The position numbers were made by a program, and so were the translations under genes. The notes beneath the pieces are model-generated. The model had not been told where the DNA came from and did no database searches. It saw only the letters and a list, made by a program, of their open reading frames with translations. Positions 6,434 through 49,783 of a stretch of 64,000 nucleotides of DNA are shown here, piece after piece. Positions within the stretch are counted from its first letter, which is position 1; every line of letters begins with the position of its first letter. The stretch is taken from assembly GCA_022843805.1 (NCBI GenBank), contig JALHMY010000030.1, positions 9,169-73,168 of the forward strand, given 5' to 3'. The stretch comes from Fuerstiella sp. (GTDB lineage Bacteria; Planctomycetota; Planctomycetia; Planctomycetales; Planctomycetaceae).

Positions 6434-6800
6434 TTCCCGGGAGGGCGAGGCTCCTGCCGAGCCGAGGCCGAGCTTTTCTCGGGAGGGCGAGGCTCCTGCC
6501 GAGCCGAGAGCCGGGTTTTTCTCGGGAGGGCAAGGCTCCTGCCGAGCCGAGGCCGAGCTTTTCCCTGGAGGGCAAGGCTCCTGCCGAGCCGAGAGCCGGG
6601 TTTTCCTCGGGAGGGCAAGGCTCCTGCCGAGCCGAGGCCGAGCTTTTCCCGGGAGGGCGAGGCTCCTGCCGAGCCGAGAGCCGAGCTTTCCTCGGGAGGG
6701 CGAGGCTCCTGCCGAGCCGAGAGCCGAGCTTTTCTCGGGAGGGCGAGGCTCCTGCCGAGCCGAGCGTTTCTCGGCTCAGCAGGCGCTTCGCCCTCCCATT
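6434..6800. repeat. 42-43-bp GC-rich tandem repeat (GEAPAEP-type), eight copies plus an inverted end
   Basis: Eight direct copies of a unit containing GAGGGCGAGGCTCCTGCC begin at 6441, 6483, 6526, 6568, 6611, 6653, 6696 and 6739; the spacer between units alternates between two versions. The block closes with an inverted copy (GGCTCAGCAGGCGCTTCGCC, 6772-6791). Read on the minus strand it gives the familiar spurious GEAPAEP/RSLALPRK peptides of planctomycete intergenic repeats. It sits between two convergent genes and could form strong hairpins that end transcription. Confidence 0.85.
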
Positions 6801-6814
6801 TGGCTCCACTGCGA

Positions 6815-7576
6815 TCATTTCGCTTCGCTCTCCAGCCCTTCAAAAATCCGGCTGCCGATTCTTACCAGCGTGGCTCCTTCTTCCACAGCCGGGACGTAGT
6901 CTCCGCTCATCCCCATCGAAAGAAGGGGCAAAGTCATGCCGAGTGCCTGACTGTCCGGCGCTGTGGCCAGCTCGTTCCGCAGGTCACACAGCAATCGAAA
7001 ACATGGACGAGCATCCTCCGGATCGTCACTCTCCGGCGCCATCGTCATCAGACCATCAATCTGTATGGCCGCGGCACCCCTGCTTCCGGACATCATTTCC
7101 AAAACGCGGGGCCAGTAGCCTCGCAGTTCCTCCGGGGAGAAACCGGACTTTGAAGCTTCTCCTGAAACATTCACCTGCAGAAGCAGTCGTGGTTTCCTGC
7201 TGAGTTCCTCCGCTACGACGGCAATTCGTTCAAGCAGTCTGAGCGAATCGACCGAGTGAATCAGAGCCGCATGTTCGAGAGCCAGTCGAACTTTATTTCG
7301 CTGCAGCTGGCCTATCAGATGCCACTCAATCTGCGGAAGCAGTCGCTGCCGGTCAGCAAGCTGCTGGGGCCGGTTCTCGCCAAATACTGCATGATGTCGG
7401 CTGAGCAGTTCAATCCAGCGCCAGTCCGCATACTTTGTTACGGCGACCAGCTGTACAGAATGTGGATCTCGCCCTGCCCGTTCGCAGGCAGCAGCGATTT
7501 GCTGGCGAATCTGCTGCAAATTTTCGCAAATCCGATTCTCTGTCTCTGTGTCTGTGTCTGAAAGAGCCACCCGCAA
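6815..7576 (-). CDS. yggS: YggS/PROSC family PLP homeostasis protein
   Basis: A 253-residue alanine-racemase-fold protein with no second domain, as in YggS/PLPBP, which binds pyridoxal 5'-phosphate and buffers vitamin B6 and amino/keto acid pools in the cytoplasm. The PLP lysine is K48 in LVAVTKYADW. Other family marks are FGEN, WHLIGQLQRNK, LLLQVNVSGEASKSGF, IDGLMTMAP, LSMGMSGDY and the C-terminal LVRIGSRIFEG. FGENRPQQ and WHLIGQLQ differ slightly from the usual FGENYVQ and WHFIGHLQ. A later start just before NRICENLQQI is possible. It converges on the deaminase gene across the GC-rich repeat. Confidence 0.9.
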   Translation of the reverse strand: MRVALSDTDTETENRICENLQQIRQQIAAACERAGRDPHSVQLVAVTKYADWRWIELLSRHHAVFGENRPQQLADRQRLLPQIEWHLIGQLQRNKVRLALEHAALIHSVDSLRLLERIAVVAEELSRKPRLLLQVNVSGEASKSGFSPEELRGYWPRVLEMMSGSRGAAAIQIDGLMTMAPESDDPEDARPCFRLLCDLRNELATAPDSQALGMTLPLLSMGMSGDYVPAVEEGATLVRIGSRIFEGLESEAK

Positions 7577-7748: not shown

Positions 7749-9827
7749 ATGAATTCTTTTTCGCATGCATTTCTGCGATTTGTTCTGGCAGTCTGGCTGT
7801 TTTCAGGCGGACTTCTGACACCACTAACTCTTGCTCAGTCGGGTGGACTGGCGAAAGAGCCGATTGTGGTGATGCGCAGTAACAAACTGAATTCACGATC
7901 TTTCATTGATTACGTGAAAGAGCTGAATCGCGAACTGCAGGTTGGCACACAAATGGCTGGCATGTTGTCTGCGGACCAGGTAAAGGAGACCCTTTCGGCC
8001 CTGGACGCCCCGATGACAGGACAAATGGTGTTTATGGTGCAGGGCCTGATTCCGGGCGCTGAAAGTATCACATTCACCGAAGTCGTGGATGAAGCGGAGT
8101 TTGAACGAATCATCCGCGCTGCGAAGGCTCAGGCTGGAGCGACCGCTGTGCTCGAAGGCAGCAAAGGACGCTACAAACAGACAATCAACAGCTCCTGGCG
8201 ACAGGATATCACGGATCAGCCAGGTGCCCCGGTTGCTCCCACTGTCCCACCGGAACTGCCCGGTGAGGATATCGAACCTGTGGAGACAGAAGAGACACAG
8301 TCGGTAACTCTGCAGGTTGGCGTATCGCCCACAGGCAGCTCGGCAGGTGTCAGCAGCAATCTGGCGACCAGCGAAGTTATCGAAGAAAACGGACGCCGTT
8401 ATATGGAACATAAATTTACAGTCGTGCAGTACCTTCGTTATCACGACGGATTTATGTTCTCCAGCACCTATGAGGACCTGCACACGATTGACCTGCCGTC
8501 CGGTGATTCTCTGCGAGGCGCGTCAAAGTCCGGCCTGGATGCAGAGATTGAATTCTTTCCTGATCGAATTCCGTCAGGTTTCAAACATCTGTTCTGGAAT
8601 ACAATGAACTCCACAGCCAGCACAGAATTGCAGCAGAGAGATGAAGAAGATCCGGTCGACTATTCCGTCCGCAGGACAGCCGGTGATCTGGGAATGGCTG
8701 CGATTCAGGCTGTTCTGTTTGATACCGATCTGGTATCCGGACAAATGCTTCTGGCGGCCAGTGATCGACCTCTCACCGGCCAGTTAAAACTCCAGGCGAG
8801 GAAGAACAGCCGGTTTTCCAAACGCCTGGAAGAACTGGCTTCTGCTCGCAGTCGATTCTCCCCGGTTCTGAATGACGAAGCGGCCCTGACATTTCATGTC
8901 GCACTGCAAATGCCGGAGGACGCTCAAAAACTCACAACCGCAATTGGCGAATGGATTCGAACTCAGCTGATCAATGCGGGCGCTCAGGATGCTGCCCTGG
9001 CCATCGCTGGCTCGGAACTCAAAACGACTCTGGATGGACTGGCCGAACATCGTAACCTCGAACTGATGCTGAAAGTTGGCTGGTCGCCCACGACGGCCGG
9101 TGTTCTTTACGGCGGAATCCAGGTCGACCATAACCCACACCTGCTGACCGCACTTTACGATCTGATGACAAATGCAGAAGTACCCGAGGAAATCGCCGAT
9201 CGAGTAGCGATGACCACAAAGGGCGACCTGAAGCTGATCCGGATTCAGATCCCCCCCGCAGATCCCGAAATTCCGCTGCGGCTGACGCATGTGTATCTTG
9301 CCCACTCCGGCGCCTGTGTATGGTTTGCAGCCGGCACAGAAAACGCCGATCAGATTCTGCAGCAGTGCATTGAACGCTGCGGAGAAGCCGGTCTGCTCGC
9401 GAAAACACCGCTGCTGACGGCAAAAGTCGACTTTGAGAAATGGATGTCCTGGCCGGACGACGATCCAACCGGTATTGCCAGCCTGCCAAATTTTGCCGAC
9501 ACGTCCATCTCCTCCGGCATCTCCTCCGGACTGCAGCAGAGGATGGGCCCGGTTGCTGAAGACCAGCCGGTTCGATCCAGTCCCGACAGCCAGATGCTCG
9601 AAAAAATTCGCAGTATGGGCGGTACCAGTTCCGCGGGCCTGGTGCTCGATGCTGATGAATCCGGTTTCGTTCTGAAGGGAGATATCGGTGCAGCCATGTG
9701 CCGATATGTCATGGCCCGATGGCTGATGATGGTCGATGCGTTTATGCCGGCCGTCAATGCTGCACAGGAAGGTTCCAGGGCGACCGCCGAGCCATCAGAC
9801 GAAGCGACGCCGACGACTCCGGAATAA
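7749..9827 (+). CDS. Secreted planctomycete protein of unknown function
   Basis: About 692 residues from the ATG of MNSFSHAFLRFVLAVWLFSG, which gives a standard signal peptide ending near LTLAQS; an upstream in-frame start adds 21 residues without signal character. The mature protein is acidic, with repeated alpha/beta segments (for example EFERIIRAAKAQAGA and KLTTAIGEWIRTQL) and proline-rich or serine-rich stretches. I recognise no enzymatic motif, cysteine pair or membrane anchor. The style matches large secreted planctomycete proteins that have no named domain. It lies upstream of and on the same strand as the NUDIX gene, separated by 72 bp. Confidence 0.7.
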   Translation: MNSFSHAFLRFVLAVWLFSGGLLTPLTLAQSGGLAKEPIVVMRSNKLNSRSFIDYVKELNRELQVGTQMAGMLSADQVKETLSALDAPMTGQMVFMVQGLIPGAESITFTEVVDEAEFERIIRAAKAQAGATAVLEGSKGRYKQTINSSWRQDITDQPGAPVAPTVPPELPGEDIEPVETEETQSVTLQVGVSPTGSSAGVSSNLATSEVIEENGRRYMEHKFTVVQYLRYHDGFMFSSTYEDLHTIDLPSGDSLRGASKSGLDAEIEFFPDRIPSGFKHLFWNTMNSTASTELQQRDEEDPVDYSVRRTAGDLGMAAIQAVLFDTDLVSGQMLLAASDRPLTGQLKLQARKNSRFSKRLEELASARSRFSPVLNDEAALTFHVALQMPEDAQKLTTAIGEWIRTQLINAGAQDAALAIAGSELKTTLDGLAEHRNLELMLKVGWSPTTAGVLYGGIQVDHNPHLLTALYDLMTNAEVPEEIADRVAMTTKGDLKLIRIQIPPADPEIPLRLTHVYLAHSGACVWFAAGTENADQILQQCIERCGEAGLLAKTPLLTAKVDFEKWMSWPDDDPTGIASLPNFADTSISSGISSGLQQRMGPVAEDQPVRSSPDSQMLEKIRSMGGTSSAGLVLDADESGFVLKGDIGAAMCRYVMARWLMMVDAFMPAVNAAQEGSRATAEPSDEATPTTPE

Positions 9828-12163: not shown

Positions 12164-12652
12164 ATGTTCGGCTTCGATACTATCAAAGATCTCATGGAGG
12201 TTGTGCTGGTTCCCGCTGTCGGAGGCGCAGTCGCGATCTACTGGCCTGAACTTCAGGCCTCAACGAGACGAAGGAAGTTCAGGAGGCTGATTGAGCGCGA
12301 GCTTAAGGAACTCGGTCCCTACCCGGAGTCGCGACCCGTCGACACCAATCACCCCTGTAACGAATGGACAGATCACCTGAAGAAACAGTTTGTTCACCAG
12401 AAACTTCTCGGGGACGCTACCGAGAACCGAGACTTCATTTTGTCTCTTGACCCCGATCTTGTGTACAACGTCAGTCAGCTCTGGGACGCCTACGGATCTA
12501 AGAACGACGTGCAATGGCTGTATCATCTCGAGGAGCTGGCAAAAAATCACTTTCCTGATGTTCACAAACCGCTTCAGCAATGGAAGAAGCTCATCGCCGA
12601 ATACAAAAAGCATGATAACACCGTGAACGCTAAGAAGGGAGGTGCAACATAA
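12164..12652 (+). CDS. Membrane-anchored protein of unknown function
   Basis: 162 residues beginning MFGFDTIKDLMEVVLVPAVG. AGGA lies about 8 bp before the ATG. Residues 8-27 form one hydrophobic, probably membrane-spanning segment; the rest is charged and helical (RRRKFRRLIERELKELG, LWDAYGSKNDVQWLYHLEEL), predicted to be cytoplasmic. I recognise no domain. It is third in a row of small same-strand genes with the two preceding ORFs and may be co-transcribed with them. Confidence 0.6.
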   Translation: MFGFDTIKDLMEVVLVPAVGGAVAIYWPELQASTRRRKFRRLIERELKELGPYPESRPVDTNHPCNEWTDHLKKQFVHQKLLGDATENRDFILSLDPDLVYNVSQLWDAYGSKNDVQWLYHLEELAKNHFPDVHKPLQQWKKLIAEYKKHDNTVNAKKGGAT

Positions 12653-13034
12653 CCTATACTTGAAGGGACCACCACGCGGGCGATTCAGTTGGTCGTATTG
12701 AGCGACTGTCAGATCTCCGAAATGAACTCGCACATTTTCCGTCGCAGGTTTCACCAATGATTGTTCACATGATCGAATCCGTACTCCCGGGTGGCAGTCT
12801 CCAGCAACCCCGGGAAGATTCCGACGCCCACTTCGTCATTAAACAGAGATTCCCCGGCGACCCTGATTTCAAGGTCCCTCGGTGTCCGAGCTGCTGTAGG
12901 ATTGAAAGGACAGATCAAACGATCGAATAAAAAAACAAAAATCTGGAAATTCCTGACAGCACCGACAACAGATGTCGTAGTGCCTTCGGTAAAGTCGGCA
13001 CAGGCCCTTACTGAACTTGTCGAGGAACTCCAAA
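12653..13034. other. Gap with one doubtful small ORF
   Basis: No confident gene. A frame open from about 12664 to the TAA at 12928-12930 reads plausibly (GRIERLSDLRNELAHF, PCPSCC-like C-terminus) but its first ATG is at 12757, giving only 57 residues. Either a short Cys-containing protein or a decayed gene end is possible. The other open frame here, from 12791, has poor composition and overlaps the WYL gene. Confidence 0.35.
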
Positions 13035-14015
13035 GTGTCTCCCGTTACACGACCACCATTTCGACGATTTCTGGCGATCGACCGCTCTGTACGCAGCGGC
13101 CAGTATCCGAATTCAGAGTCGCTCGCTGCGGAGCTCGAAGTCGATTCAAGAACAATTCAGCGCGACATTGCATTTCTCAGAGATCAGCTGGGGGCGCCTC
13201 TGGAGTTTTGTCGTAAGCACAATGGCTACATGCTGACGGATCAGTCGTGGACGTTGCCGTCGTTTCAACTCACCGAAGGGGAGTTGGTCAGTGTTTTTCT
13301 GGCCGAACGACTCATCCGGCAATACCGTGGTACTCCATTCGAATCGGACCTTTCACATGCGTTCGAACGAATTGTGCGAATGCTTCCGGAAGAAATCACG
13401 GTCAGCCTTGCGGAGGTATCAGACACACTCTCTGTGACACCCTGTGTGCTGACAACGCAGGATATGGAGACGTTCCGTTTGCTGACAACAGCCGTTCAGC
13501 AACGGAAGCAATTGCGATTGCTCTACTGGTCTGCATCACAGAATCGAGATACCGATCGCATAGTGAATCCGCTGCATCTGTCACTTGTGGACAACGACTG
13601 GTATTTGATCGCGTGGTGCCACACTCGCGGTGAGATCCGCATGTTTTCGACAGTTCGCATTCGAGGAGCAGAGCAAACCGGGACATCGTTCGAGCGTCCC
13701 GAGGATTTCGACATTACCGTATACCTCGGCAACAGCTTCCGCGCCGTACGCGGGGCCGGCAACCAGACGTGGACCGTCAGGCTGAAGTTTCGATCTGAAA
13801 TGGCAGGCCGGATCCGGGAAAAAATCTGGCACCACACGCAGACTCTGGAGGATCAGCCTGATGGCAGCGTGATCATGCATCTGCAAGTCAGCAGTCTCAT
13901 TGAAATCCGCCGCTGGGTCCTTTATTGGGGTGCCGATTGCCAGGTATTAGAGCCGGAGGAGCTGCGAGAACAGATACGAAGCGATGCCCGAGCCGTGGAG
14001 TTCAACTATTCATAA
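13035..14015 (+). CDS. HTH-WYL domain transcriptional regulator of the CRISPR locus
   Basis: About 326 residues. I choose the GTG at 13035, with GAGGA 8 bp upstream; a TTG at 13017 is the alternative. Residues 10-60 form a DeoR-like winged helix (PFRRFLAIDRSVRSGQYPN then SRTIQRDIAFLRDQLGAP). A WYL domain follows at about 145-220 (LRLLYWSASQ, DRIVNPLHLSLVDNDWYLIA, MFSTVRI), then a WCX C-terminal extension. WYL domains sense nucleic acid or nucleotide ligands, and such regulators often accompany CRISPR-Cas and other defence loci, where they repress or activate cas transcription. It is first in the same-strand block that runs through cas4, and is the obvious candidate to control the promoter at 14115. 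Confidence 0.85.
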   Translation: MSPVTRPPFRRFLAIDRSVRSGQYPNSESLAAELEVDSRTIQRDIAFLRDQLGAPLEFCRKHNGYMLTDQSWTLPSFQLTEGELVSVFLAERLIRQYRGTPFESDLSHAFERIVRMLPEEITVSLAEVSDTLSVTPCVLTTQDMETFRLLTTAVQQRKQLRLLYWSASQNRDTDRIVNPLHLSLVDNDWYLIAWCHTRGEIRMFSTVRIRGAEQTGTSFERPEDFDITVYLGNSFRAVRGAGNQTWTVRLKFRSEMAGRIREKIWHHTQTLEDQPDGSVIMHLQVSSLIEIRRWVLYWGADCQVLEPEELREQIRSDARAVEFNYS

Positions 14016-14114
14016 AATCATGGAGGAAAACAGCTTGCGGAGGTGACAGGAGTTTTTTTCACAGATTTTGAGTTGCAAATCCTATCGCACCGGACATTAC
14101 TAGTGTGAGACTGT

Positions 14115-14142
14115 TTGACACATATGCTCAGATGCTTATCAT
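14115..14142 (+). promoter_or_regulatory. Strong sigma-70-type promoter before the small-ORF/sigma-4 genes
   Basis: A perfect TTGACA at 14115-14120, a 16-bp spacer and TATCAT (5/6 to consensus) at 14137-14142. A start near 14149 would leave a very short leader before the ATG at 14163. The -10 box overlaps the first of two ATCATGCAA direct repeats. Confidence 0.6.
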
Positions 14143-14168
14143 GCAACGGCGGATAAATAATCATGCAA
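14138..14168. promoter_or_regulatory. Two direct repeats ATCATGCAA, 22 bp apart: operator or pseudo-crRNA target sites
   Basis: Identical 9-mers at 14138-14146 and 14160-14168, two helical turns apart; the first overlaps the -10 box, the second the start codon of the 68-aa ORF. On the minus strand each reads TTG then CATGAT, i.e. a TTG in PAM position followed by the first five bases of the pseudo-spacer at 14708. The second site also matches pseudo-spacer positions 7 and 8. They could equally be operators for the WYL protein. Confidence 0.5.
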
Positions 14169-14369
14169 GGAATGATTGACTGGAAACGAATCCAAATTCT
14201 CCAGGCAGAGCTTGGCGTCATTGCAAATCGCAACGGGAACGGCTTTGCGGCGCTCGAAGCCGCCAGCGATGCGTTGTTCTTTTTCATAGAGAACCCTGAG
14301 TCGAGCGCGAGTCCCGTCGGTGTCTTCCGTAATTGTCTGCGGGACATCAAACGCACATTGCTCCAATAG
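14163..14369 (+). CDS. 68-residue protein of unknown function in front of the cas genes
   Basis: 68 residues from ATG 14163 (a second ATG lies at 14172). It is helical and neutral, with segments MIDWKRIQILQAELGVIANR, AALEAASDALFFFIENP and PVGVFRNCLRDIKRTLLQ. I recognise no family. The gene lies directly behind the TTGACA/TATCAT promoter, its start codon lies in a TTG-CATGAT site, and only 10 bp separate it from the sigma-4-like gene, so the two are probably co-transcribed. By analogy with CreTA modules of type I-B loci it could be a toxin or regulator whose expression Cascade represses, but nothing in the protein itself shows toxicity. Confidence 0.5.
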   Translation: MQGMIDWKRIQILQAELGVIANRNGNGFAALEAASDALFFFIENPESSASPVGVFRNCLRDIKRTLLQ

Positions 14370-14379
14370 GATCTGAAAA

Positions 14380-14670
14380 ATGCCACGAAGAAGACTGGAT
14401 TCACTGGACCGACACTCAGAGGCGGGGCTTGCCCTTGAGGATGTGCGAGCAGCAGAACCAATTGAGCAGCTTGCTAAGGAGGAGGAATTGCAACAAATCA
14501 AAGCTGTGCTAAGTACTTTGTCCCGGCGAGAGCAGATTGCAATTCAACTTCGGATAAATGACGGAATGAGCTTTGGGGATATTGGAAAACGCTTTGCCGT
14601 CAGTCGAGAGAAAGCGCGGCAGATGTTCTCCCAGAGTATCAGTGTTCTGCGTGAAAGGATCGCGTCATAA
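14380..14670 (+). CDS. Sigma-70 region 4-only small protein
   Basis: 96 residues, ATG preceded by AGGA at 9 bp. The N-terminal 45 residues are charged (MPRRRLDSLDRHSEAG, EQLAKEEELQQIKAVL). Residues 46-95 are a sigma-70 region 4 helix-turn-helix: LSRREQIAIQLRIN, then GMSFGDIGKRFAVSREKARQ, closing VLRERIAS. There is no region 2, so it cannot be a full sigma factor; free region 4 domains act as anti-sigma-like or transcription-activating adaptors, or bind -35-like DNA. It lies between the 68-aa ORF and cas8b on the same strand and is a good candidate for a cas regulator, possibly through the -35 region. The link to CRISPR control is inferred from position. Confidence 0.75.
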   Translation: MPRRRLDSLDRHSEAGLALEDVRAAEPIEQLAKEEELQQIKAVLSTLSRREQIAIQLRINDGMSFGDIGKRFAVSREKARQMFSQSISVLRERIAS

Positions 14671-14682
14671 GACGTAATGGTA

Positions 14683-14761
14683 TTCCATGAACAACACGGT
14701 TTGAAACCATGACTAAGCGAGCTGGGCATGATCCCATTCCATCATAACAAGGATCTTGCAG
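14683..14761 (+). ncRNA. Degenerate CRISPR repeats flanking a pseudo-spacer (mini-CRISPR / crRNA-like RNA candidate)
   Basis: Pseudo-repeat 1 (14683-14707) starts TTCCAT and ends GGTTTGAAAC; aligned to the last 28 bases of the array repeat it matches 21 of 25 positions with one 3-base gap, and its final eight bases TTTGAAAC differ from the array 5' handle ATTGAAAC at one base. Pseudo-repeat 2 (14737-14761) contains TTCCATC and TAACAAGGAT, matching 17 of 18 with one 4-base gap, then decays. Between them lie 29 bp (14708-14736) beginning CATGACTAAGC. Neither copy keeps the first nine bases of the repeat. The orientation equals that of the array and cas genes. Cas6 processing of pseudo-repeat 1 could yield a crRNA-like guide, as in CreA or cas-autorepression RNAs. 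A decayed relic array is the alternative. Confidence 0.65.
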
Positions 14762-14808
14762 TCGTGCTTCATCATCGCGTTTTTGGCCAATAGAGTAGAG
14801 ATCACCCG

Positions 14809-16791
14809 ATGATTATCGACATGTACAATCTCGGAAAGGCGTACGTCGAATCCGGAGGTAGTTTCGGTTCGACAGGATTGACGGATCAGCAGAAACGTCT
14901 GGCCTTCCTGACTGAACCACACGAGACCGGGACACCACTATTTGTATTGTGGCTGGATGATTCCGGAGTCGCGAGGCTGGAACAGCACGAGGTTCGGGCC
15001 GGCCAGTCGTGGCGGCTGCCTTTCATCAAAGTGGCTCCAAACGCAGCCTACTTGTGCCCAGTTTTCAAATCTGACGTGAAGAAGGGTATTCAGCCGTCTA
15101 AGCGAAATACCACGCTGAAACGATTCGAGTTGCTGGCGCAGGCTGCTGACCCGTCGGCCGCCTATTTCCAGCGGGTCGTGGATACGCTCACCGCAACAAA
15201 ATTCCGCATGGCTGGGGATGCAGAGTTTCGGACAGTCGATGACGCATTTGGTGCAACAGTGACAGTTATCGTGGCCGCAAATCTTTCTGGCAGATCGCCG
15301 ATCATTTGTGTCGCGTCCGATTCCAAAGGTGCGGTCTGGCCCGGAGACGACGAACGACTCGCGACGTGGTTATTGAATGCCCGTGAACGACTTTCCATCT
15401 ATGAAACAAAGTCCGTTCCAAACATCGAACGAGCGGTATGTCCGTTAACGGGAGAAGCATCGGAGCTTTTCACTAACGGCCTCACTGGCGCTGGACTGAA
15501 CTTCGTCAACGGAGACTTTGAAGGTTCGTTTTCCGAGCTGAATGGAGAGCGCGGCTGGCAAAGGGCCGCCGTCTCGGCAGATGCCGCCGACATTCTGTAT
15601 ATCTACAAGAATCACGTCGCGCCGGATTTCTTTGAGTACATTGCCGGATCAAAAGCACTGGTCATTCCCGCTGCCAGCGCTGGCCCGGACGCTCGCAAGC
15701 GGTTCGTGAATGCCGTTCAGGGACTAACAGAAAAGAAACATACGGAAGGAGCAGAAGGGCGATTGCTGAGTCGGTTTGCTCAGAATGATGGTTCAGTGGC
15801 CTCGATCACACTCCTCTGGGCTTCCTTTGCCCAGAAGTTCGAAGAGGCGACCGCAATGATTTCCCATGTATTGCCAAGTCGCCTGGCGGAACTACATGGA
15901 ATACATGACGACTACATTAAGTCGAAAGATCCGTTTCATCCGCAGCACGCCCATGAACACATCCGTCGTCCTTTGAATTTGACGTATTCACTTGCGGCAG
16001 AACTGACGTACCGGCCCGGTGGTGCCCGGGTCAAAGAACAAAATGCTAGTCCGCGTCGGCATGCATTGCTGCGTGAGCTTGTCGCGTCGATCTACCACCG
16101 ACAGCCACTCTGTGCAGATGGGTTCTGGAAACAAATTGCTCAGACGGCGCGAGCGTATGTTGTACTGCTGCTGGAGCAGGCCGAGAGTCGCGGAGTGGTT
16201 TATCAGCTTCAATATGAAGGCCCGAATTCGCCTAAAAAGCAGACACCGTTGACGGTCAACGGTTGGATACGTCATTTGACGATGTTCTTGTCATTCCTTG
16301 CTGATCCGCGGATTGGCGTCTTTTCGAAGGAGGATTATGTGTACGAACCCACGCAGGAAAGCTTGAAGCCGCTGTTGGCTCACGCAAAAGGTCTTAATAA
16401 TCCCGCCAAACAGTTCACATTTCTGCTGGGTGTGCTGTATGGTCATTTGATTTATGTGCAGGCTGAAAAAGCAAAAGTCAGCGTCGCATCCAATGCGTTG
16501 AGCTGGCTCAAAAGTGGCCGTGTTCGAGCTGCTGATTTGCCCGAACTGTACGGAAAGATTTCGTCGAAGCTGCTGGAATACCACTCGCTGGGAATTGCCC
16601 GAAAGTTTGCACGTGTGCATGCAATCGAAACAGAACTCGGGCATTTGGGAACTTCGATCGGCGACGGCGTGAATGCTCGTGATCTCCCCGATGATAAGGT
16701 TCTTTACTTTCTAATGCTGGGCATGTCTATGTCCTACACATTCACTTTCACAGAGAAACGTGACACCCGGAAGAACGGAGATACTGAATGA
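14809..16791 (+). CDS. cas8b: Cas8b (Csh1/TM1802-like) large subunit of type I-B Cascade
   Basis: 660 residues, the usual size for a type I large subunit; a second ATG lies 12 bp downstream. This subunit reads the PAM and recruits Cas3. The C-terminal third has the Csh1 pattern: FTFLLGVLYGHLIYVQAEKA, a helical linker with ADLPELYGKISSKLLEY, then KVLYFLMLGMSMSYTF. The middle has CPLTGEASELFTNGLTG but only one cysteine there, so the zinc-finger pairs found in many Csh1 proteins are missing. FEYIAGSKALVIPA follows. That central block also faintly recalls Cas8c; the neighbours favour Cas8b. Its TGA overlaps the cas7 ATG (ATGA), so the two are translationally coupled. Upstream lies the pseudo-repeat region. 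Confidence 0.8.
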   Translation: MIIDMYNLGKAYVESGGSFGSTGLTDQQKRLAFLTEPHETGTPLFVLWLDDSGVARLEQHEVRAGQSWRLPFIKVAPNAAYLCPVFKSDVKKGIQPSKRNTTLKRFELLAQAADPSAAYFQRVVDTLTATKFRMAGDAEFRTVDDAFGATVTVIVAANLSGRSPIICVASDSKGAVWPGDDERLATWLLNARERLSIYETKSVPNIERAVCPLTGEASELFTNGLTGAGLNFVNGDFEGSFSELNGERGWQRAAVSADAADILYIYKNHVAPDFFEYIAGSKALVIPAASAGPDARKRFVNAVQGLTEKKHTEGAEGRLLSRFAQNDGSVASITLLWASFAQKFEEATAMISHVLPSRLAELHGIHDDYIKSKDPFHPQHAHEHIRRPLNLTYSLAAELTYRPGGARVKEQNASPRRHALLRELVASIYHRQPLCADGFWKQIAQTARAYVVLLLEQAESRGVVYQLQYEGPNSPKKQTPLTVNGWIRHLTMFLSFLADPRIGVFSKEDYVYEPTQESLKPLLAHAKGLNNPAKQFTFLLGVLYGHLIYVQAEKAKVSVASNALSWLKSGRVRAADLPELYGKISSKLLEYHSLGIARKFARVHAIETELGHLGTSIGDGVNARDLPDDKVLYFLMLGMSMSYTFTFTEKRDTRKNGDTE

Positions 16792-17864
16792 ACAACACAC
16801 TTTCCAACCGCCATGAATTCCTTTTCCTGTACGATATCCGAATGGGGAATCCCAATGGTGATCCCGATGAGAATCGTCCACGGCGATTGCCGGATGGCAC
16901 AGTCTATGTGACAGACGTTCGTCTTAAGCGATTTGTTCGCGACTGGCTCAAGACTCAGGGTGAAAGCATTCTGGTAGATCGACCGGAAGATGCTGCGACC
17001 AATCTCACCGGACGACTGCAGTATTTCCTGAACCCCAGCAATACTCCCGAGGCATTGAAGGCAGATGTTCAGGAATACCTGACGCTGGCGGCCAGCAAAC
17101 CAAAAAAGAAAGGAAAGGGTAAGAAAAGAGGCGATACCGAAGAACCAGAGGCAGACGCAGAGACAGACGATACAGCGGATGAATCCGCCCAGCCACTTGG
17201 TCAGAAGCTGGTCCGGATTATTCTGAAAGCATTCATTGATGCTCGCTTGTTTGGCAGCTCCCTCGCGTTCAAAGACTGGGACGTCGATCCTCGGCCAAAA
17301 ACACTGACCGGCGCCGTGCAGATCAATATGGGTGAGACAAAGAATAAACCACAGGAAGTCGACATTGCCGGAACGTCCATCTTCGCGAGCTCCGTAGAGA
17401 AGACTCAGGGAACCTTCACTACGTTCTTTGGTCTGCGGTATGGCCTGATCGCTTTCAATGGTCTGGCCAATGAACACTCCGCACGACTGTCGCAATTGAC
17501 GGATGCAGACTATGAATTGCTTCTCAAGGCATTGTGGAAGAGCGTCAGCAGCTCTCCAACGGCGAACACACGCAGCAAAGCTGGCCAGGTGCCACGCTTG
17601 CTGGTTGACGTAACCTACAAACCTAAGTCTGAGTTTCAGTACGGATGTTTGCTGGATTACGTGGCCGTTCGTCCGAAAGGCGAGATTCCGGAATCCGATC
17701 TTTCGGGTCCGCATGACTACGAGTTGGACTGTTCGAAGCTGGTGGAGCGTCTGAGCTGCAATCTGGTGCAATCGGTTCGCGTTGCGATTCATCCGGACGT
17801 CCAGTTGGCAGGAGAACTGCCGGCGGCTTGGACGGAGCTCAACTTTGATGGCACTGAGGGCTGA
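16788..17864 (+). CDS. cas7: Cas7 (Csh2-type) Cascade backbone protein with a charged insertion
   Basis: 358 residues. Csh2-type Cas7 subunits polymerise along the crRNA to form the Cascade backbone. The N-terminus NRHEFLFLYDIRMGNPNGDP followed by VTDVRLKRFVRDWLKTQ is the Csh2 signature, and DARLFGSSLA belongs to the RRM core. Members are usually near 300 residues; the extra length is a low-complexity insertion at about 104-136, first lysine-rich (KPKKKGKGKKRG) then acidic (EADAETDDTADE). The gene overlaps the cas8b stop and is followed two bases after its own stop by cas5, so Cascade genes form one translational unit. Confidence 0.9.
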   Translation: MNNTLSNRHEFLFLYDIRMGNPNGDPDENRPRRLPDGTVYVTDVRLKRFVRDWLKTQGESILVDRPEDAATNLTGRLQYFLNPSNTPEALKADVQEYLTLAASKPKKKGKGKKRGDTEEPEADAETDDTADESAQPLGQKLVRIILKAFIDARLFGSSLAFKDWDVDPRPKTLTGAVQINMGETKNKPQEVDIAGTSIFASSVEKTQGTFTTFFGLRYGLIAFNGLANEHSARLSQLTDADYELLLKALWKSVSSSPTANTRSKAGQVPRLLVDVTYKPKSEFQYGCLLDYVAVRPKGEIPESDLSGPHDYELDCSKLVERLSCNLVQSVRVAIHPDVQLAGELPAAWTELNFDGTEG

Positions 17865-17866
17865 TC

Positions 17867-18652
17867 ATGCAGACACTTTCGTTTCGATACTTCGGTCGCG
17901 TTGGGCACTTCATGCGGGCTGAGATGAATGCTTCGGCACTGTCTTATCCTGTGCCTCCGCGGACGGCTCTGCTTGGTATGCTGGGAGCAATCCTTGGGCT
18001 ACCCAAGGATTGCTCTTCTACGGAACTGTCGGATGCACAAATCGGGCTCAGGATTCAAGGCGGTATGCCGCTGAGACACTACCACAAAGCCAATGTTCGA
18101 AAGCGAAACGGAATAATCAAAGCCGTGTCTGTGAAACTCAAACCGGCAAAATCCGGAACCACGTGGGACGAATCCGACGCGTCGGGCCGTGGTGCTGCCA
18201 GTCAGGTGACGCAGGAATGGCTGATGAATCCTGATTTCGAAGTGTTTGTAGGATCTTTTGAAAGACGCTCGTGGTTTGCTGATCTGGTCGCGCGGTTCGA
18301 TGGTGAGGTTCCTCGCTGTCATTTTACTCCATGTCTGGGCACCGCATGGATGACAGCGCAATTAAGAAAAAAGCATCTCGCTGATGCAGTGCCAATGCCA
18401 GAGATCGAACACGCCGTTGAAACGATTTGTCGAACAGATCAGGCAGATCCGCCATCTTTGCGGCGACTGCTTGAAATAAAGTATGACGATGGATCGTCAC
18501 CTGCGGTGCAGGAAATCCGTTTACCGAGAATCGTGACAGAAGATCGTATCTTTTCGCAGGCCGATTACTTCATGGAGATGAATGGTCGCACAATTCCACT
18601 CAAAACCAGTCACGCCTGGCAGTTTGAGAATCGAGTGATTACGTTCTTGTAG
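17867..18652 (+). CDS. cas5: Cas5 (type I-B) Cascade subunit
   Basis: 261 residues. Cas5 caps the 5' handle of the crRNA and contacts the large subunit. The N-terminal RAMP fold is clear: LSFRYFGRVGHFMRAEMNAS followed by SYPVPPRTALLGMLGAILGL, the typical glycine-rich entry of Cas5. SFERRSWFADLVARF and the C-terminal LKTSHAWQFENRVITFL agree with full length. It lacks the catalytic extension of Cas5c, consistent with a separate Cas6 in this locus. The start lies two bases after the cas7 stop. Confidence 0.88.
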   Translation: MQTLSFRYFGRVGHFMRAEMNASALSYPVPPRTALLGMLGAILGLPKDCSSTELSDAQIGLRIQGGMPLRHYHKANVRKRNGIIKAVSVKLKPAKSGTTWDESDASGRGAASQVTQEWLMNPDFEVFVGSFERRSWFADLVARFDGEVPRCHFTPCLGTAWMTAQLRKKHLADAVPMPEIEHAVETICRTDQADPPSLRRLLEIKYDDGSSPAVQEIRLPRIVTEDRIFSQADYFMEMNGRTIPLKTSHAWQFENRVITFL

Positions 18653-21281: not shown

Positions 21282-21372
21282 TCTCGTCTGTATCTATCTC
21301 TTTATTCCATGATTCCCTGATACAATGAACCCTGACTCCAGCCACACCTGTGCCCACGAACGATCTCTTTTG

Positions 21373-22017
21373 ATGGCGACGCTGCGACTGAATATCTTGC
21401 CGTTGCATCCGTTGCCTCTGGCAACCCATGTACGTGGTGCGCTCGCTCACATGTATCCTCATTTGGACTTGCTGCATCAGCACGGGGAAAACGGTCTTAT
21501 CTATCGATCTCCGCGAGTTCTCTACTCTGTGGACGACAACGGACCCCTGATTACGGCTGTTGAAGAAGGTGCTGAAGAACTGATGAAGGTACGGATACTA
21601 AATCAATCAATGCGTATGGGGCACGTAGATCGAATGGTTACTGATACAACCCTGAAGGTGTCACAAGCCGCCCTGGGACAGTCTTCGGAACACATTCGCT
21701 ATCGATTTCGCAGGCCGTGGCTTGCGTTGAATCAGGAAAACCACCGACGTTACGAATCGCTTTCTGAATCTGAACGAACGGAGTTTCTCAATCGACAACT
21801 TTGTAACAACTGTCTCGCGCTTGCAAAATCCTTCGGAGTCCGAATCGATCTTCGTTTGACCGCAGAGTCAAACCTTCGTCCGACGACCACAAAACACAAG
21901 GGGATGCCGATGCTGGGATTTGTCGGGGAATTCGTCCTGTCGTTTCAGATTCCGGAAGGAATGGGTCTTGGAAAATCTGTGGCCAAAGGTTTCGGAACAA
22001 TCACAAGGATTTCCTGA
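21373..22017 (+). CDS. cas6: Cas6b-like CRISPR pre-crRNA endoribonuclease
   Basis: 214 residues from the ATG of MATLRLNILPLHPLPLATHV; an in-frame start 48 bp upstream is possible but adds a hydrophilic tail unlike the family. Cas6 cuts the repeat RNA eight bases before its 3' end, leaving the ATTGAAAC handle. The C-terminal half has the Cas6b layout: RFRRPWLALNQENHRRY, LCNNCLALAKSFGV, HKGMPMLGFVGEFVLSFQIP and the glycine-rich GMGLGKSVAKGFGTI RNA-binding loop at the end. The catalytic residue cannot be assigned by eye. Its position between cas3 and cas1 is unusual, since cas6 normally heads I-B operons. It meets cas1 at TGATCATG, the same junction as cas7/cas5. Confidence 0.85.
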   Translation: MATLRLNILPLHPLPLATHVRGALAHMYPHLDLLHQHGENGLIYRSPRVLYSVDDNGPLITAVEEGAEELMKVRILNQSMRMGHVDRMVTDTTLKVSQAALGQSSEHIRYRFRRPWLALNQENHRRYESLSESERTEFLNRQLCNNCLALAKSFGVRIDLRLTAESNLRPTTTKHKGMPMLGFVGEFVLSFQIPEGMGLGKSVAKGFGTITRIS

Positions 22018-24312: not shown

Positions 24313-27300
24313 GCTTCAGCGTTCCATCCACAACAACAAGGATTGAAACTGCGTACGCAAACGGCTATCAGTTTCCAGGCCGGAAAGCTTCAGCGTTCCA
24401 TCCACAACAACAAGGATTGAAACCCAGTATCCGCAACCGGAGCTAACACTACATCAGGTGCTTCAGCGTTCCATCCACAACAACAAGGATTGAAACATAA
24501 TCAGCGCGTTATACTGTTCGTCAAAGTCTTCTTGCTTCAGCGTTCCATCCACAACAACAAGGATTGAAACGTTTCCTGGGGACTACGAACGTCGCAAGGT
24601 TCTTCCGCTTCAGCGTTCCATCCACAACAACAAGGATTGAAACCGATTGGTCAACTGATAGGAAACTATGCCCTTCGCCTGGCTTCAGCGTTCCATCCAC
24701 AACAACAAGGATTGAAACCACTAACCACCCTGTGCACATGCACGTCAGCAGTACGGCTTCAGCGTTCCATCCACAACAACAAGGATTGAAACCTAGAACG
24801 TGCGAACCCTTCTACCGCGCTGCCAGCGGCTTCAGCGTTCCATCCACAACAACAAGGATTGAAACCCCGTTCCTGATCCCGCCTTCAGTCAATGCGGTCC
24901 GGCTTCAGCGTTCCATCCACAACAACAAGGATTGAAACTCGTGCCCTTCGCCGGTCACTGTGCGATCGTGCGAAGCTTCAGCGTTCCATCCACAACAACA
25001 AGGATTGAAACGCGGATGGCGAATGGGCATCATATGCCTTCTGCTGCCGCTTCAGCGTTCCATCCACAACAACAAGGATTGAAACAATATCGGTCCGGAG
25101 CGGCCGTTGCCCGCGATCACAGCTTCAGCGTTCCATCCACAACAACAAGGATTGAAACCTGTTATGGAAAAGGGCTGGAAGGATCGCCCCACCGGCTTCA
25201 GCGTTCCATCCACAACAACAAGGATTGAAACCAGGATAAGTGCATATGATCACTGCTGCCGAATTCGGCTTCAGCGTTCCATCCACAACAACAAGGATTG
25301 AAACCAGGCGCTGTTAGCGTTTCGAATTCTGCCATGTGGCGCTTCAGCGTTCCATCCACAACAACAAGGATTGAAACAGTATGAAAATCAGGTATATGAA
25401 ATCCCGTCTATCAAGCTTCAGCGTTCCATCCACAACAACAAGGATTGAAACTATGTTACGGGTACTTTTGCCGATGCTGAAGCAGCGAAGCTTCAGCGTT
25501 CCATCCACAACAACAAGGATTGAAACCATCATTTCAGGATGCAACGTCATCGCGCTGTTTTGCAGCTTCAGCGTTCCATCCACAACAACAAGGATTGAAA
25601 CCTACGTTTACCAATGTGCGCGGAGATGTCTTCACCGATGCTTCAGCGTTCCATCCACAACAACAAGGATTGAAACTCGGCATGTGTCCACTTAGCAGCA
25701 GCAACATCAACCGCTGCTTCAGCGTTCCATCCACAACAACAAGGATTGAAACTATAAAACAGGTGCTTCGTGTGATTGTCAGCGAAGTGGCTTCAGCGTT
25801 CCATCCACAACAACAAGGATTGAAACTATACTACACGTCCGGTTTCGCCCCATAGGGTTTGAAGCTTCAGCGTTCCATCCACAACAACAAGGATTGAAAC
25901 CTTCAGCAGGGGCGGGTGTAACATTTGCTAAGTACATGCTTCAGCGTTCCATCCACAACAACAAGGATTGAAACCGAACCGCTTCAGCAACCGCTGCGGG
26001 TGTAACCTGGCTTCAGCGTTCCATCCACAACAACAAGGATTGAAACCTACCGTCAAATGATTTTATCTATGGTGTGGTACCGAGCTTCAGCGTTCCATCC
26101 ACAACAACAAGGATTGAAACTTCTACACAATCTATGGGCGCTTTGTTGCGGGCGAAGCTTCAGCGTTCCATCCACAACAACAAGGATTGAAACAACTAGC
26201 CGACGATAAGCTAGTCAATGCAATACATGCTTCAGCGTTCCATCCACAACAACAAGGATTGAAACAAAGAATATTATCATGCCAGCTATTGCCGACTATT
26301 TCTTCAGCGTTCCATCCACAACAACAAGGATTGAAACACCTACAGTTTGGACCAACCGCGCCATTAATGTCTGTGCTTCAGCGTTCCATCCACAACAACA
26401 AGGATTGAAACTCACCGGCCGCCACCGTAGCGAATCAGCACGCAAACAAGCTTCAGCGTTCCATCCACAACAACAAGGATTGAAACTTGGCGTATAGGTG
26501 TACCGAAGCGGACGGGGCCTAGCGCTTCAGCGTTCCATCCACAACAACAAGGATTGAAACCCATAGGTTACCTGACACATTTGACATTGAAACGTTGCTT
26601 CAGCGTTCCATCCACAACAACAAGGATTGAAACCCGTACAGTGCTACTGAAACAGCTAGTGCATGGTCTAGCTTCAGCGTTCCATCCACAACAACAAGGA
26701 TTGAAACCTACGCTTCGCAGTGTGCGGTGCACGGGGACTTGGTGCTTCAGCGTTCCATCCACAACAACAAGGATTGAAACAAGATTACCGGCAACGTCTG
26801 GTCATCGGCATTATCCGCGCTTCAGCGTTCCATCCACAACAACAAGGATTGAAACCTGCTGAAACGCTGCTTTATATGGAACCTAGCATAGCTTCAGCGT
26901 TCCATCCACAACAACAAGGATTGAAACTAGGGTGGGAAGCCCGACTCACCCGAACTTCAGGTCGTGCTTCAGCGTTCCATCCACAACAACAAGGATTGAA
27001 ACCCTGTAATTCAGAGGGGCTGTTCTATGGCTACCCTAGCTTCAGCGTTCCATCCACAACAACAAGGATTGAAACAGAAGTAGTGCCAATCGATGCTATC
27101 GCATAGCTGTTGCTTCAGCGTTCCATCCACAACAACAAGGATTGAAACTATCGCTGGGATAATCTGCTGGGGACTGTGCTCGTCGCTTCAGCGTTCCATC
27201 CACAACAACAAGGATTGAAACCAGGCCTTGAAAAAGTTTGTCACTGAGACGCTCGGCGAGCTTCAGCGTTCCATCCACAACAACAAGGATTGAAACATTG

Positions 27301-30300
27301 ATATGTAAAGTCCCCCAGATTGGCCGCTCTCCTGCTTCAGCGTTCCATCCACAACAACAAGGATTGAAACCCGGCGGCGAGTTTGCCGCTGGCCGAGGCG
27401 TCGACTGAGCTTCAGCGTTCCATCCACAACAACAAGGATTGAAACCCCAGCAGGAGCTGAGTAAGCTGGCACCTCTTCAGCGGCTTCAGCGTTCCATCCA
27501 CAACAACAAGGATTGAAACCAACATGGTGTCCGTAGTGCTTAGCAACCACTGCCACGCTTCAGCGTTCCATCCACAACAACAAGGATTGAAACGTGGCGT
27601 TCACTTCGGCGATACTGGCCGCCGCCAGTGCTTCAGCGTTCCATCCACAACAACAAGGATTGAAACCCTAGGGTCCACTTGCAACCCTTCCTGTTCAATC
27701 TCATGCTTCAGCGTTCCATCCACAACAACAAGGATTGAAACCATTCAGCAGCATCATAGAGACGTAAGCATTGACACGCTTCAGCGTTCCATCCACAACA
27801 ACAAGGATTGAAACCCCGGATCGGTTTCCAGATCCTTCGCGCGGCGTTCCAGGCTTCAGCGTTCCATCCACAACAACAAGGATTGAAACATCAGGTGGAT
27901 GTCGGCAGGAGTGTAGAGAGCTTCCAGCTTCAGCGTTCCATCCACAACAACAAGGATTGAAACATTGCCGTGGGCCAGGTACAGCTGAAGCATCCAGAAA
28001 GCTTCAGCGTTCCATCCACAACAACAAGGATTGAAACTCCGTGTTACGTGGTCATTCTGGTCAGGGCAATTTCGCTTCAGCGTTCCATCCACAACAACAA
28101 GGATTGAAACTAAACCGATGTAACTCCGTCAGCATCAAGAATGTTGGCTTCAGCGTTCCATCCACAACAACAAGGATTGAAACCCGGTAGCAGCGCGTGC
28201 GATCCCTGCATAAAGTTGCGCTTCAGCGTTCCATCCACAACAACAAGGATTGAAACACACAAGACCAACCGGAGCGCCAAGCAACTGCGTTCGCGCTTCA
28301 GCGTTCCATCCACAACAACAAGGATTGAAACTATTGATAGCTGCCAAGTTCGCGCTGCATCTTGAACATGCTTCAGCGTTCCATCCACAACAACAAGGAT
28401 TGAAACCGAATCGTGGTAATCGACTGCATGCTGCTGTCATACAGCTTCAGCGTTCCATCCACAACAACAAGGATTGAAACTACGCCCGTCGAAATCCCTT
28501 GTGCGGTCCGTTACCGGTGCTTCAGCGTTCCATCCACAACAACAAGGATTGAAACCTCCAATACCTGTCCGAGCTGTAGACGTGTCTCTCAAGCTTCAGC
28601 GTTCCATCCACAACAACAAGGATTGAAACTACAGAAATGCGTACATTCCGGTCAGAGCAGCGTAAGGGCTTCAGCGTTCCATCCACAACAACAAGGATTG
28701 AAACATCAAATCCGTATTGAAGGACGGATCGGCACTGCCAAGCTTCAGCGTTCCATCCACAACAACAAGGATTGAAACCTCTGGGTTGAGGAGCTGTTTG
28801 CCCAGCAGGAGCTGAGGCTTCAGCGTTCCATCCACAACAACAAGGATTGAAACCAGCTCAATGATCTGCTCATCGAATACATGGCCATGTGGCTTCAGCG
28901 TTCCATCCACAACAACAAGGATTGAAACCTCCGGTTGGGCGGTATCTCAATCTTGTGGTGGATAAGCTTCAGCGTTCCATCCACAACAACAAGGATTGAA
29001 ACTCCGGCTGCCGGCCGACATCTGCGATCGGCACGAGCGCTTCAGCGTTCCATCCACAACAACAAGGATTGAAACCTTGATCGGAATGGCCCGGCTGCTG
29101 GCTGCGTTCCGACGCTTCAGCGTTCCATCCACAACAACAAGGATTGAAACCTGATCGTTCAGTGATTGAATACCCTGCCGGCCGGGCTTCAGCGTTCCAT
29201 CCACAACAACAAGGATTGAAACAAGCTGGCTCCACCGTTTATCTATCCCGGGGACGTGGTGCTTCAGCGTTCCATCCACAACAACAAGGATTGAAACCCA
29301 CAATGCTTCGCAGTCGCCAGGAAATCCCGCTCGAGGCTTCAGCGTTCCATCCACAACAACAAGGATTGAAACCAAAGAATATCAGCCGCTGCAGTTTGAT
29401 CGGGTCAAGGCTTCAGCGTTCCATCCACAACAACAAGGATTGAAACCCGAAAGGGTCGTCATAAGTGATCACGCTGCCGACTTGCTTCAGCGTTCCATCC
29501 ACAACAACAAGGATTGAAACAAACCGTGGGTTCAATGGGTCTGCATTGATGCCCGGGCTTCAGCGTTCCATCCACAACAACAAGGATTGAAACAAAAGTC
29601 TCAAGTGGGTTCGGTTTGTCATCGGTCAGGCTTCAGCGTTCCATCCACAACAACAAGGATTGAAACTACGGGGCAAAGGTGCGGCCACTGCGGTTTTTTG
29701 ATGCTTCAGCGTTCCATCCACAACAACAAGGATTGAAACATGGCTATCCTGTCGTCAGCTGAGAGTCAGTGTATTGCTTCAGCGTTCCATCCACAACAAC
29801 AAGGATTGAAACCCCTTTAGCAAGCAGTGTCGTCAAGTCAGATATCGCAGGCTTCAGCGTTCCATCCACAACAACAAGGATTGAAACTCCATAGCGATCC
29901 AACCGGCACCGATCCATTGTGGGCTTCAGCGTTCCATCCACAACAACAAGGATTGAAACTGGAAGCTATAGATATGATCAGAAGTTCCATCTTCTGGCTT
30001 CAGCGTTCCATCCACAACAACAAGGATTGAAACTCTATGATCAGCGCGGGGACCTGTATAAGCTACTCCGGCTTCAGCGTTCCATCCACAACAACAAGGA
30101 TTGAAACCGGTCAGGACGACTACCGGAACCTCTGTGGCTGTCAGGCTTCAGCGTTCCATCCACAACAACAAGGATTGAAACTGATTTCCGCTGCAATCAC
30201 TTCCACAGTGCTGCTAAGCTTCAGCGTTCCATCCACAACAACAAGGATTGAAACCACGTATAGCAGCAGCGGTAGCCGCGCGAACGTACTGCTTCAGCGT

Positions 30301-39300: not shown

Positions 39301-39414
39301 ACGAGCTTCAGCGTTCCATCCACAACAACAAGGATTGAAACTGTGCATGTTCGCGCCCTAGATGTCTGCGCCGTCCGGCTTCAGCGTTCCATCCACAACA
39401 ACAAGGATTGAAAC
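24313..39414 (+). CRISPR. Type I-B CRISPR array, 205 repeats and 204 spacers
   Basis: I traced every repeat start from 24313 to 39378 and counted 205 copies of a 37-bp repeat that begins GCTTCAGCGTTCCATCC and ends GGATTGAAAC; spacers are 35-40 bp, mostly 36-38. Only four repeats are imperfect: 26301 and 37533 (first base T and C), 35316 (base 8 C to A) and 38860 (base 2 C to T). TTC.ATCC and GGAT.GAA can pair across a 10-nt loop with one mismatch, a weak hairpin. The ATTGAAAC end gives plus-strand crRNAs, so the leader is at 24140-24312 and the oldest spacers lie near 39 kb. Both terminal repeats are perfect. Six spacers occur twice, leaving about 198 distinct ones. ORFs reading FHPQQQGLK, FSVPSTTTRIET or FNPCCCGWNAEA are translations of the repeat. 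Confidence 0.99.
33174..34061 (+). repeat. Perfect 444-bp tandem duplication inside the CRISPR array
   Basis: Six repeat-spacer units at 33174-33617 recur in the same order and, as far as I compared the spacers, without a difference at 33618-34061. This is a recombination product between repeats, not re-acquisition. Confidence 0.97.
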
Positions 39415-49240: not shown

Positions 49241-49783
49241 ATGAACAACGTCCTTTTGCCGCAGCCACCCAGAGTCACTCAAAATGAGCGGCGATGCTGG
49301 GCCGCCGCTTTTGAGAGCTGGGATCGGGCGAACGCAAACTGCTTTGGAATACCAGCGTGCTTCGATCAGGGGCAACTTGCCACCTGGTTTGATCGTACTC
49401 ATGGATTGACAGGGCATGGAGGAGCGGCCACGGCAGATGGGCTGAGCGTTATACAAAGCATCGGAATGATGCGTGTTCGATCAATGGTCGGTGCCCGTCT
49501 CACATCTGATCTGCTTGCTGAATGGCTGCAAATCAGTTATGTTTTTTGTGCTTATTCCTGGCCGGCGAGTGGCGGATCCAGGTCCGGATCGCACGCTATG
49601 GTCCTTTATGGAGTTCAAAAGGAAACGATTTTCATGATGGATCCGGCGGCACATCGCGGACTGGTTCGCGAACCTGTTCACTTCTTTCACAGGCCAGGAA
49701 TTCGTGCAGCATTCGGTGTGTCGCTGCTGGCCGATTTTCGACGTGGTCTCGACAGCACGATTGCTTCCCTCCAGGCTGGATAG
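49241..49783 (+). CDS. Papain-like cysteine protease
   Basis: 180 residues from the ATG of MNNVLLPQPPRVTQNERRCW, with AAGGA about 10 bp upstream. The catalytic triad of papain-like (C39-like/AvrRpt2-like) peptidases is visible: C19 in RCWAAAFESW, H118 in SGSHAMVLYGV and D134 in IFMMDPA. There is no signal peptide, so it is cytoplasmic or exported by another route. Such single-domain proteases in bacteria process peptides or act in competition; no precursor peptide or transporter gene is adjacent. Confidence 0.7.
   Translation: MNNVLLPQPPRVTQNERRCWAAAFESWDRANANCFGIPACFDQGQLATWFDRTHGLTGHGGAATADGLSVIQSIGMMRVRSMVGARLTSDLLAEWLQISYVFCAYSWPASGGSRSGSHAMVLYGVQKETIFMMDPAAHRGLVREPVHFFHRPGIRAAFGVSLLADFRRGLDSTIASLQAG

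Follow-up and report, generated by a model that had tools for sequence, protein, structure and literature searches.

The closest described relatives of the element reported here are the small guide RNAs CreR and CreA, both of which direct Cascade; self-control of the CreR kind has been described only recently. CreRs of types I-B, I-E, and V-A are crRNA-like guides that come from degenerate repeats at the cas locus (PMC12737573, PMC12948488, PMC13131331), and they repress the cas genes of these types through partial complementarity to a promoter (PMC13131331, PMC12737573). Relief of this repression by competing crRNAs or by anti-CRISPRs is described in reviews. CreA belongs to the haloarchaeal type I-B CreTA modules and is flanked by two diverged repeats, psiR1 and psiR2 (PMC8501985, PMC9458426), the first of which keeps the Cas5-binding handle and the second of which loses it (PMC9458426). 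Mutation of CreA showed that its pairing is indifferent to guide positions 6 and 12, and this pairing is ungapped and uses the PAM TTC (PMC8501985).

The window, by which we mean the whole 64-kb stretch of DNA that was analyzed, is part of a 92-kb contig from a planctomycete genome of 9.2 Mb and holds a very large type I-B CRISPR system with the genes cas8b, cas7 (Csh2), cas5, cas3, cas6b, cas1, cas2, and cas4. On the plus strand the locus begins with a regulator gene identified by its WYL/WCX domain match (13017–14015), followed by an open reading frame of 68 aa without a Pfam or PHROGs match (orf1, 14163–14369) and one of 96 aa that matches sigma-70 region 4 only (14380–14670). These are followed by cas8b (TM1802/Csh1-like, 14809–16791), cas7 (16788–17864), cas5 (17867–18652), and then, between 18864 and 24139, cas3, cas6b (21325–22017), cas1, cas2, and cas4, all assigned by family matches. 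For cas8, cas7, and the Cas5h model the NCBIfam scores lie under the cut-offs and the Pfam matches above them. The gene set is followed on the same strand by a CRISPR array (24313–39414) of 205 repeats (GCTTCAGCGTTCCATCCACAACAACAAGGATTGAAAC) and 204 spacers with a period of 72–77 bp, made up of the 37-nt repeat and spacers of 35–40 nt. A search of the genome for the 28-nt repeat core with up to three mismatches returned 205 occurrences, as many as the array has exact copies. An identical block of 300 bp occurs twice inside the array, at 33170–33469 and 33614–33913.

The first-pass annotation of this DNA had proposed that two degenerate repeats lie on the array strand directly before cas8b, and both the alignments and the score of the pair confirm this. 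The pair is located in the 138-bp gap 5' of cas8b. The first repeat, psiR1 (TTCCATGAACAACACGGTTTGAAAC, 14683–14707), aligns with the 3'-terminal 28 nt of the array repeat with 22 matches in 25 positions and one 3-nt gap; the position and the gap are as originally given, and the original count of 21 in 25 is corrected here. For psiR2 (TTCCATCATAACAAGGAT, 14737–14754) realignment gave the same result as before, 17 matches in 18 positions with one 4-nt gap. Re-measurement likewise returned a separation of 29 bp between the two. The distance of 75 bp that had also been given does not hold, however: the starts are 54 bp apart, which is below the array period, and 75 bp is roughly the whole span. 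Compared with its own array, the element has the 3' half of the repeat, the strand, and the handle in common, and it differs in its deletions, its shorter spacing, its single unit, and the 5'-terminal 9 nt of the repeat (GCTTCAGCG), which are unrecognizable and absent from both local alignments. Taken by itself, psiR1 is unremarkable genome-wide, its local score of 32 being reached by one of 19,998 tiles from 600 kb of simulated sequence. The pair scores 49, a value that none of 1,000 shuffled repeats reached (maximum 37), nor any of 500 other 380-bp stretches of the window drawn from 250 places on both strands with the array and its neighborhood left out (maximum 34). The original claim that two such matches are unlikely by chance is thus upheld, and that the two-repeat degenerate element is real is near certain. 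The minus strand of the same region yielded no match to a repeat pair, and RNA folding of the two repeats was no better than that of shuffles.

The two copies differ in what they retain at their 3' ends. The seven 3'-terminal bases of the repeat (TTGAAAC) are intact in psiR1, so that the near-normal handle noted earlier is indeed present as TTTGAAAC at 14700–14707, to be compared with ATTGAAAC in the array. In psiR2 the bases AACAAGG are retained and are followed by ATCTTGCA where the handle would stand. Judged from these sequences, the arrangement of a handle kept in psiR1 and lost in psiR2 is that of CreA. Between the copies lies a pseudo-spacer (14708–14736, plus strand) with the putative guide CATGACTAAGCGAGCTGGGCATGATCCCA, whose start is placed at 14708 because the end of the repeat fixes the register. 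Assuming cleavage by Cas6b 8 nt upstream of the repeat end in each copy, the predicted mature CreR-like RNA extends from 14700 to 14752 on the plus strand and is 53 nt long.

To place the element among related loci, we collected at least 80 loci by Cas7 alignment against genome contigs; among the matches listed, 22 form a group with 46–54% Cas7 identity (L019–L037, L044, L047, and L048). Eight loci (L015–L017, L028, L032, L037, L051, and L079) were left out of the survey for repeat pairs because of their orientation or missing upstream DNA. The survey took in 78 loci, 72 of which were testable, used 200 shuffles for each, and took the longest upstream open reading frame as the start of cas8; a generic repeat replaced the native one where an array was absent or unparsed, as was the case for L044, L066, and L070 among the positives. 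Eight of the 72 loci tested, the window included, reached the floor of 1/201 (0.4 expected): the window, L044, L066, L067, L070, L071, L083, and L085. The remaining 64 did not, the next values being 0.025 and then 0.12. With eight of 72 loci at the floor, the unit thus recurs, though in a minority of these loci. L066 and L070 have the same sequence throughout the 360 bp upstream and count as one case, and L085 has a single convincing repeat, which leaves L044, L066/L070, L071, L067, and L083 as independent pairs besides the window; L066 and L071 are homologs, and L067 and L083 both come from Bacillaceae. L044, a Latescibacterota metagenome-assembled genome (MAG) from the 46–54% group, has a WYL-like gene upstream and two degenerate repeats, the second of which ends 18–30 bp 5' of cas8, depending on the choice of start codon. 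A convincing guide target was not found in L044, L067, L083, or L085.

L067 (Anoxybacillus) has, besides the pair before cas8 at 7952–8045, a second near-repeat pair at 6546–6642, upstream of a gene for an aminoacyl-tRNA editing domain (6794–7240). In L085 (Terrisporobacter) a near-complete copy of the repeat lies upstream of cas8 at 7816–7852, apparently, as judged by eye, at the 3' end of a coding sequence, and is followed by a terminator-like hairpin; this repeat may be a one-repeat CreR or CreA.

In the two homologous loci L066 and L071, guide and target vary together. The guide of L071 (Petrimonas) has a minus-strand match 240 bp before cas8, after TTTA, that covers positions 1–16 except 6 and 12, and the guide of L066 (a Parabacteroides MAG) has one 241 bp before cas8, also on the minus strand and after TTTA, that covers positions 1–16 except 12. 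The upstream regions of the two loci align as homologs with the sites at the same place. The two guides differ at positions 2, 7, 9, 10, 11, and 14, and the two targets carry the identical six changes plus one at the flipped-out position 6; each guide matches the region of the other locus more poorly (11 of 16). Shuffled guides reached the 16-nt score in 4 of 2,000 cases for L066 and in 5 of 2,000 for L071. The score of the seed only was reached by 49 and 17 of 2,000 shuffles, respectively, and this evidence is modest because the DNA is AT-rich. Promoter-like matches at these sites are weak (9/12), in a scan whose consensus does not cover Bacteroidota promoters. Given the covarying guides and targets, the indifference of CreA to positions 6 and 12 (PMC8501985), and the description of CreR in the reviews (PMC12737573, PMC13131331), L066 and L071 look from their sequences like CreR genes, and the two loci amount to a natural covariation experiment for CreR. 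The order of target site, mini-CRISPR, and cas8 in the window, as well as the placement of its candidate target on the minus strand, parallel L066 and L071.

That candidate target, for which the first-pass annotation had given no proposal, overlaps a predicted promoter that precedes two small open reading frames and is not a separate promoter of cas8. P1 (TTGACA-16-TATCAT, 14115–14142, plus strand) agrees with the consensus at 11 of 12 positions and is the only sigma-70-like match within 13900–15000; because shuffles of the region average 1.1 promoter-like sites, P1 stands as a prediction only. Candidate target A (CATGA-TAAGC-ATCTGAGCAT) occupies minus-strand positions 14143 to 14124, over the −10 element of P1, with TTG at 14144–14146 as its 5' flank on the putative PAM side. 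Its alignment with the guide CATGACTAAGCGAGCTGGGCAT has one-base gaps at guide positions 6 and 12 and mismatches at positions 14 and 18. Under a model in which positions 6 and 12 may be skipped, framed after the alignment had been seen, the site matches at 18 of 20 nonflipped positions, and the next best site on both strands of the 64 kb matches at 15 of 20. By plain edit distance, the value of 4 over 22 nt was equaled within 710 bp upstream by 5 of 6,000 shuffled guides and 7 of 6,000 real 22-mers from the window, and within 2.1 kb by 4 of 2,500 and 9 of 2,500, respectively, which corresponds to P values of about 0.001 to 0.004. Over 17 nt the match is weaker (57/6,000 shuffled and 76/6,000 real in 710 bp; 95/2,500 and 91/2,500 in 2.1 kb). 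With a standard gap penalty it is not significant: depending on the size of the region, 90 to 428 of 1,000 shuffled guides and 96 to 494 of 1,000 shuffled regions did as well. A flexible pattern derived from the alignment, and thus chosen after both sequences had been seen, matches the genome twice, at the guide and at the P1 site.

We also looked for other targets. A weaker candidate, target B (TTGCATGATTA, TTG-CATGA, 14158–14165, minus strand), matches guide positions 1–5, 7, and 8 and not 9–11. For the guide starting at 14708, no ungapped target with at least nine of ten seed matches exists within 12600–14900, and the two ungapped 9/10 sites in the whole window, on the minus strand at 49560 and 34345, are far from the promoter. 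The best ungapped site near cas8, at 14776 on the minus strand, has eight of ten matches with position 1 mismatched and was rejected. Other guide registers between 14700 and 14721 gave three 9/10 sites, for starts at 14709, 14714, and 14719; these were set aside, the start being fixed at 14708 by the repeat end.

The gaps in target A fall where a type I-B complex might tolerate them. In type I-B, Cas7 binds the crRNA in a 5+1 arrangement in which the sixth base is flipped out (PMC11096372), which makes skipping at guide positions 6 and 12 conceivable. The promoter site could be two bases shorter than the guide, with blocks of 5 nt pairing, the flipped-out bases 6 and 12 having no partner in the target, and the skipped RNA bases looped out. 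We put this forward tentatively, as a possibility less likely than not. Our literature search, as far as the texts retrieved extend, returned no report of Cascade tolerating targets that lack bases 6 and 12. Binding at P1 does not strictly depend on such looping, since for E. coli Cascade five seed base pairs and a good PAM suffice for binding; incomplete R-loops repress poorly (PMC5904413). If true, bulged pairing could give the system an inherent means of binding and repressing its own promoter without triggering Cas3, and it is possibly the new aspect of this locus, the CreR kind itself being already known. The P1 site provides a compact way to test the acceptance by Cascade of targets without bases opposite the flipped-out positions, a question relevant to the off-target rules of type I tools.

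We consider it probable, from the sequence features described, that the element is a CreR-type mini-CRISPR through which Cascade is guided to repress its own cas operon at P1. The mini-CRISPR would be transcribed with the 5' part of the operon, which would run from P1 through orf1, the sigma-70 region 4 gene, and the mini-CRISPR to cas8 and onward. Cas6b would cut both degenerate repeats to give a crRNA-like RNA of about 53 nt with the handle UUUGAAAC and the guide CAUGACUAAGC. Loaded with this RNA, Cascade would sit on P1 through partial complementarity, using the putative PAM TTG and a pairing too weak for interference, and would thereby repress the operon. Repression would be relieved when array crRNAs compete for Cascade or when anti-CRISPRs disable it; with 204 spacers, the array would compete for the same Cascade as the private guide. 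The first-pass annotation had proposed a crRNA-like RNA that makes Cascade a repressor of cas genes, and the anatomy of the handle, the recurrence of the unit in type I-B loci, and the covariation in two of them support this. It had named both a CreTA-like unit and a cas-repressing RNA; cas regulation of the CreR kind fits better, and the CreTA-like reading fits less well, no toxin having been identified from the protein families of the two upstream frames.

Compared with CreR, the element likewise consists of degenerate repeats that lie at the cas locus but apart from the array, keeps the handle and processing features of the array at the level of sequence, and lacks an identified toxin; its guide may be partially complementary to a predicted promoter leading into the cas genes. 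It differs in having two small open reading frames that separate the mini-CRISPR from its candidate target promoter, in a candidate target that has no counterparts for guide bases 6 and 12, and in its planctomycete host. With CreA it has in common the two diverged repeats, one with and one without the handle, as well as a putative seed-type pairing indifferent to positions 6 and 12; unlike the ungapped pairing of CreA (PMC8501985) and of L066 and L071, the match in the window is gapped, and a CreT RNA is not among the features identified here.

Among other explanations, a decayed relic, that is, a former mini-CRISPR or an off-site spacer integration that gives no working RNA, would account for the 3–4 nt deletions, for the absence of the repeat's first 9 nt from both alignments, and for the imperfect target match. 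It is nonetheless unlikely, as one copy retains the handle and the other has lost it, which is the pattern of a processed CreA gene, other loci show the unit at the same place, and the guide still matches P1. CreTA- or CrePA-like addiction, in which orf1 or the sigma-70 region 4 gene would be a toxin silenced by the guide and the cell would suffer once Cascade is lost, is possible because two small open reading frames of unproven role lie under P1; P1 is directly 5' of both, the degenerate repeats are 3' of both, and CreTA and CrePA share the same guide logic. When the protein families of the two upstream frames were examined as to the protein toxin of CrePA, one matched sigma-70 region 4 and the 68-aa frame matched no family. 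Because transcription from P1 would continue into the cas genes as well, regulation of cas is the simpler outcome, and we regard addiction as quite improbable. That P1 and the pseudo-spacer instead share a DNA operator, bound by the WYL regulator or the sigma-70 region 4 protein, is hinted at by the two adjoining regulator genes and by the score of 13 that the P1 site also has on the opposite strand under the skip model, which suggests partial symmetry; it is very improbable given that the pattern matches just these two sites in the genome, begins at guide base 1, and has its gaps at guide positions 6 and 12. Chance likeness of intergenic DNA to the repeat, although psiR1 alone is expected repeatedly in a 9-Mb genome at one tile per 600 kb of simulated sequence, has a negligible probability in view of both pair tests and the recurrence before cas8 elsewhere. 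The CreR-type reading adds a planctomycete case to the CRISPR systems that apparently tune themselves with a private guide; the literature search found no planctomycete CreR case in titles and abstracts.

Searches for close cas8 orthologs found none in 170 genomes of the family and none in 392 genomes of the phylum, the latter giving one remote match. PF09484 identified five remote loci in the 392 genomes besides that of the window, of which L018 and L014 alone entered the pair survey. Single-protein cas8 scans of genome contigs and viral contigs gave no match, as did a search of plasmid proteins with the cas8 of L044; with a cas8 profile, matches were obtained in 2 of the 64 genomes from the phylum of L044 and in 5 of the 297 from that of L022, the starting genome being counted in each. 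Protospacers of the array spacers were found neither in phages or plasmids by megablast nor in the genome itself, and three union patterns covering 6 of the 204 spacers had no match in viral contigs. In the 170 family genomes, spacer matches were confined to a related array in genome G130 and to short matches of about 29–57 nt, several of which are, by eye, of low complexity or lepA-like and which were set aside. The sister system in G130, from another genus of the same family, has Cas1, Cas2, and Cas4 that are 87%, 86%, and 80% identical and the repeat GTCTTTGAACCCAATCCACGACAACAAGGATTGAAAC. This system (L139, 1–5550, contig C116) has 48 repeats that differ in their 5' half; its contig begins within cas1, so the cas8 side is missing.

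The L044 genome contains two further composite sites. At 1501–1600 of L105, a I-B-type degenerate repeat is followed by a sequence like a second array repeat (CATCCACATGCGTGTGGGGAGAT) and then by TTCCAACAGAACAAGGACTAAGG, in a unit that sits between helicase/cas3-like and cas1-like genes (named by eye) and that is possibly a mini-CRISPR addressing two systems. At 640–720 of L101, the first spacer shown of a CCCCACGCTTGTGGGG-type array contains a I-B-type repeat (TCCAATAAAACAAGGATTGAAAT).
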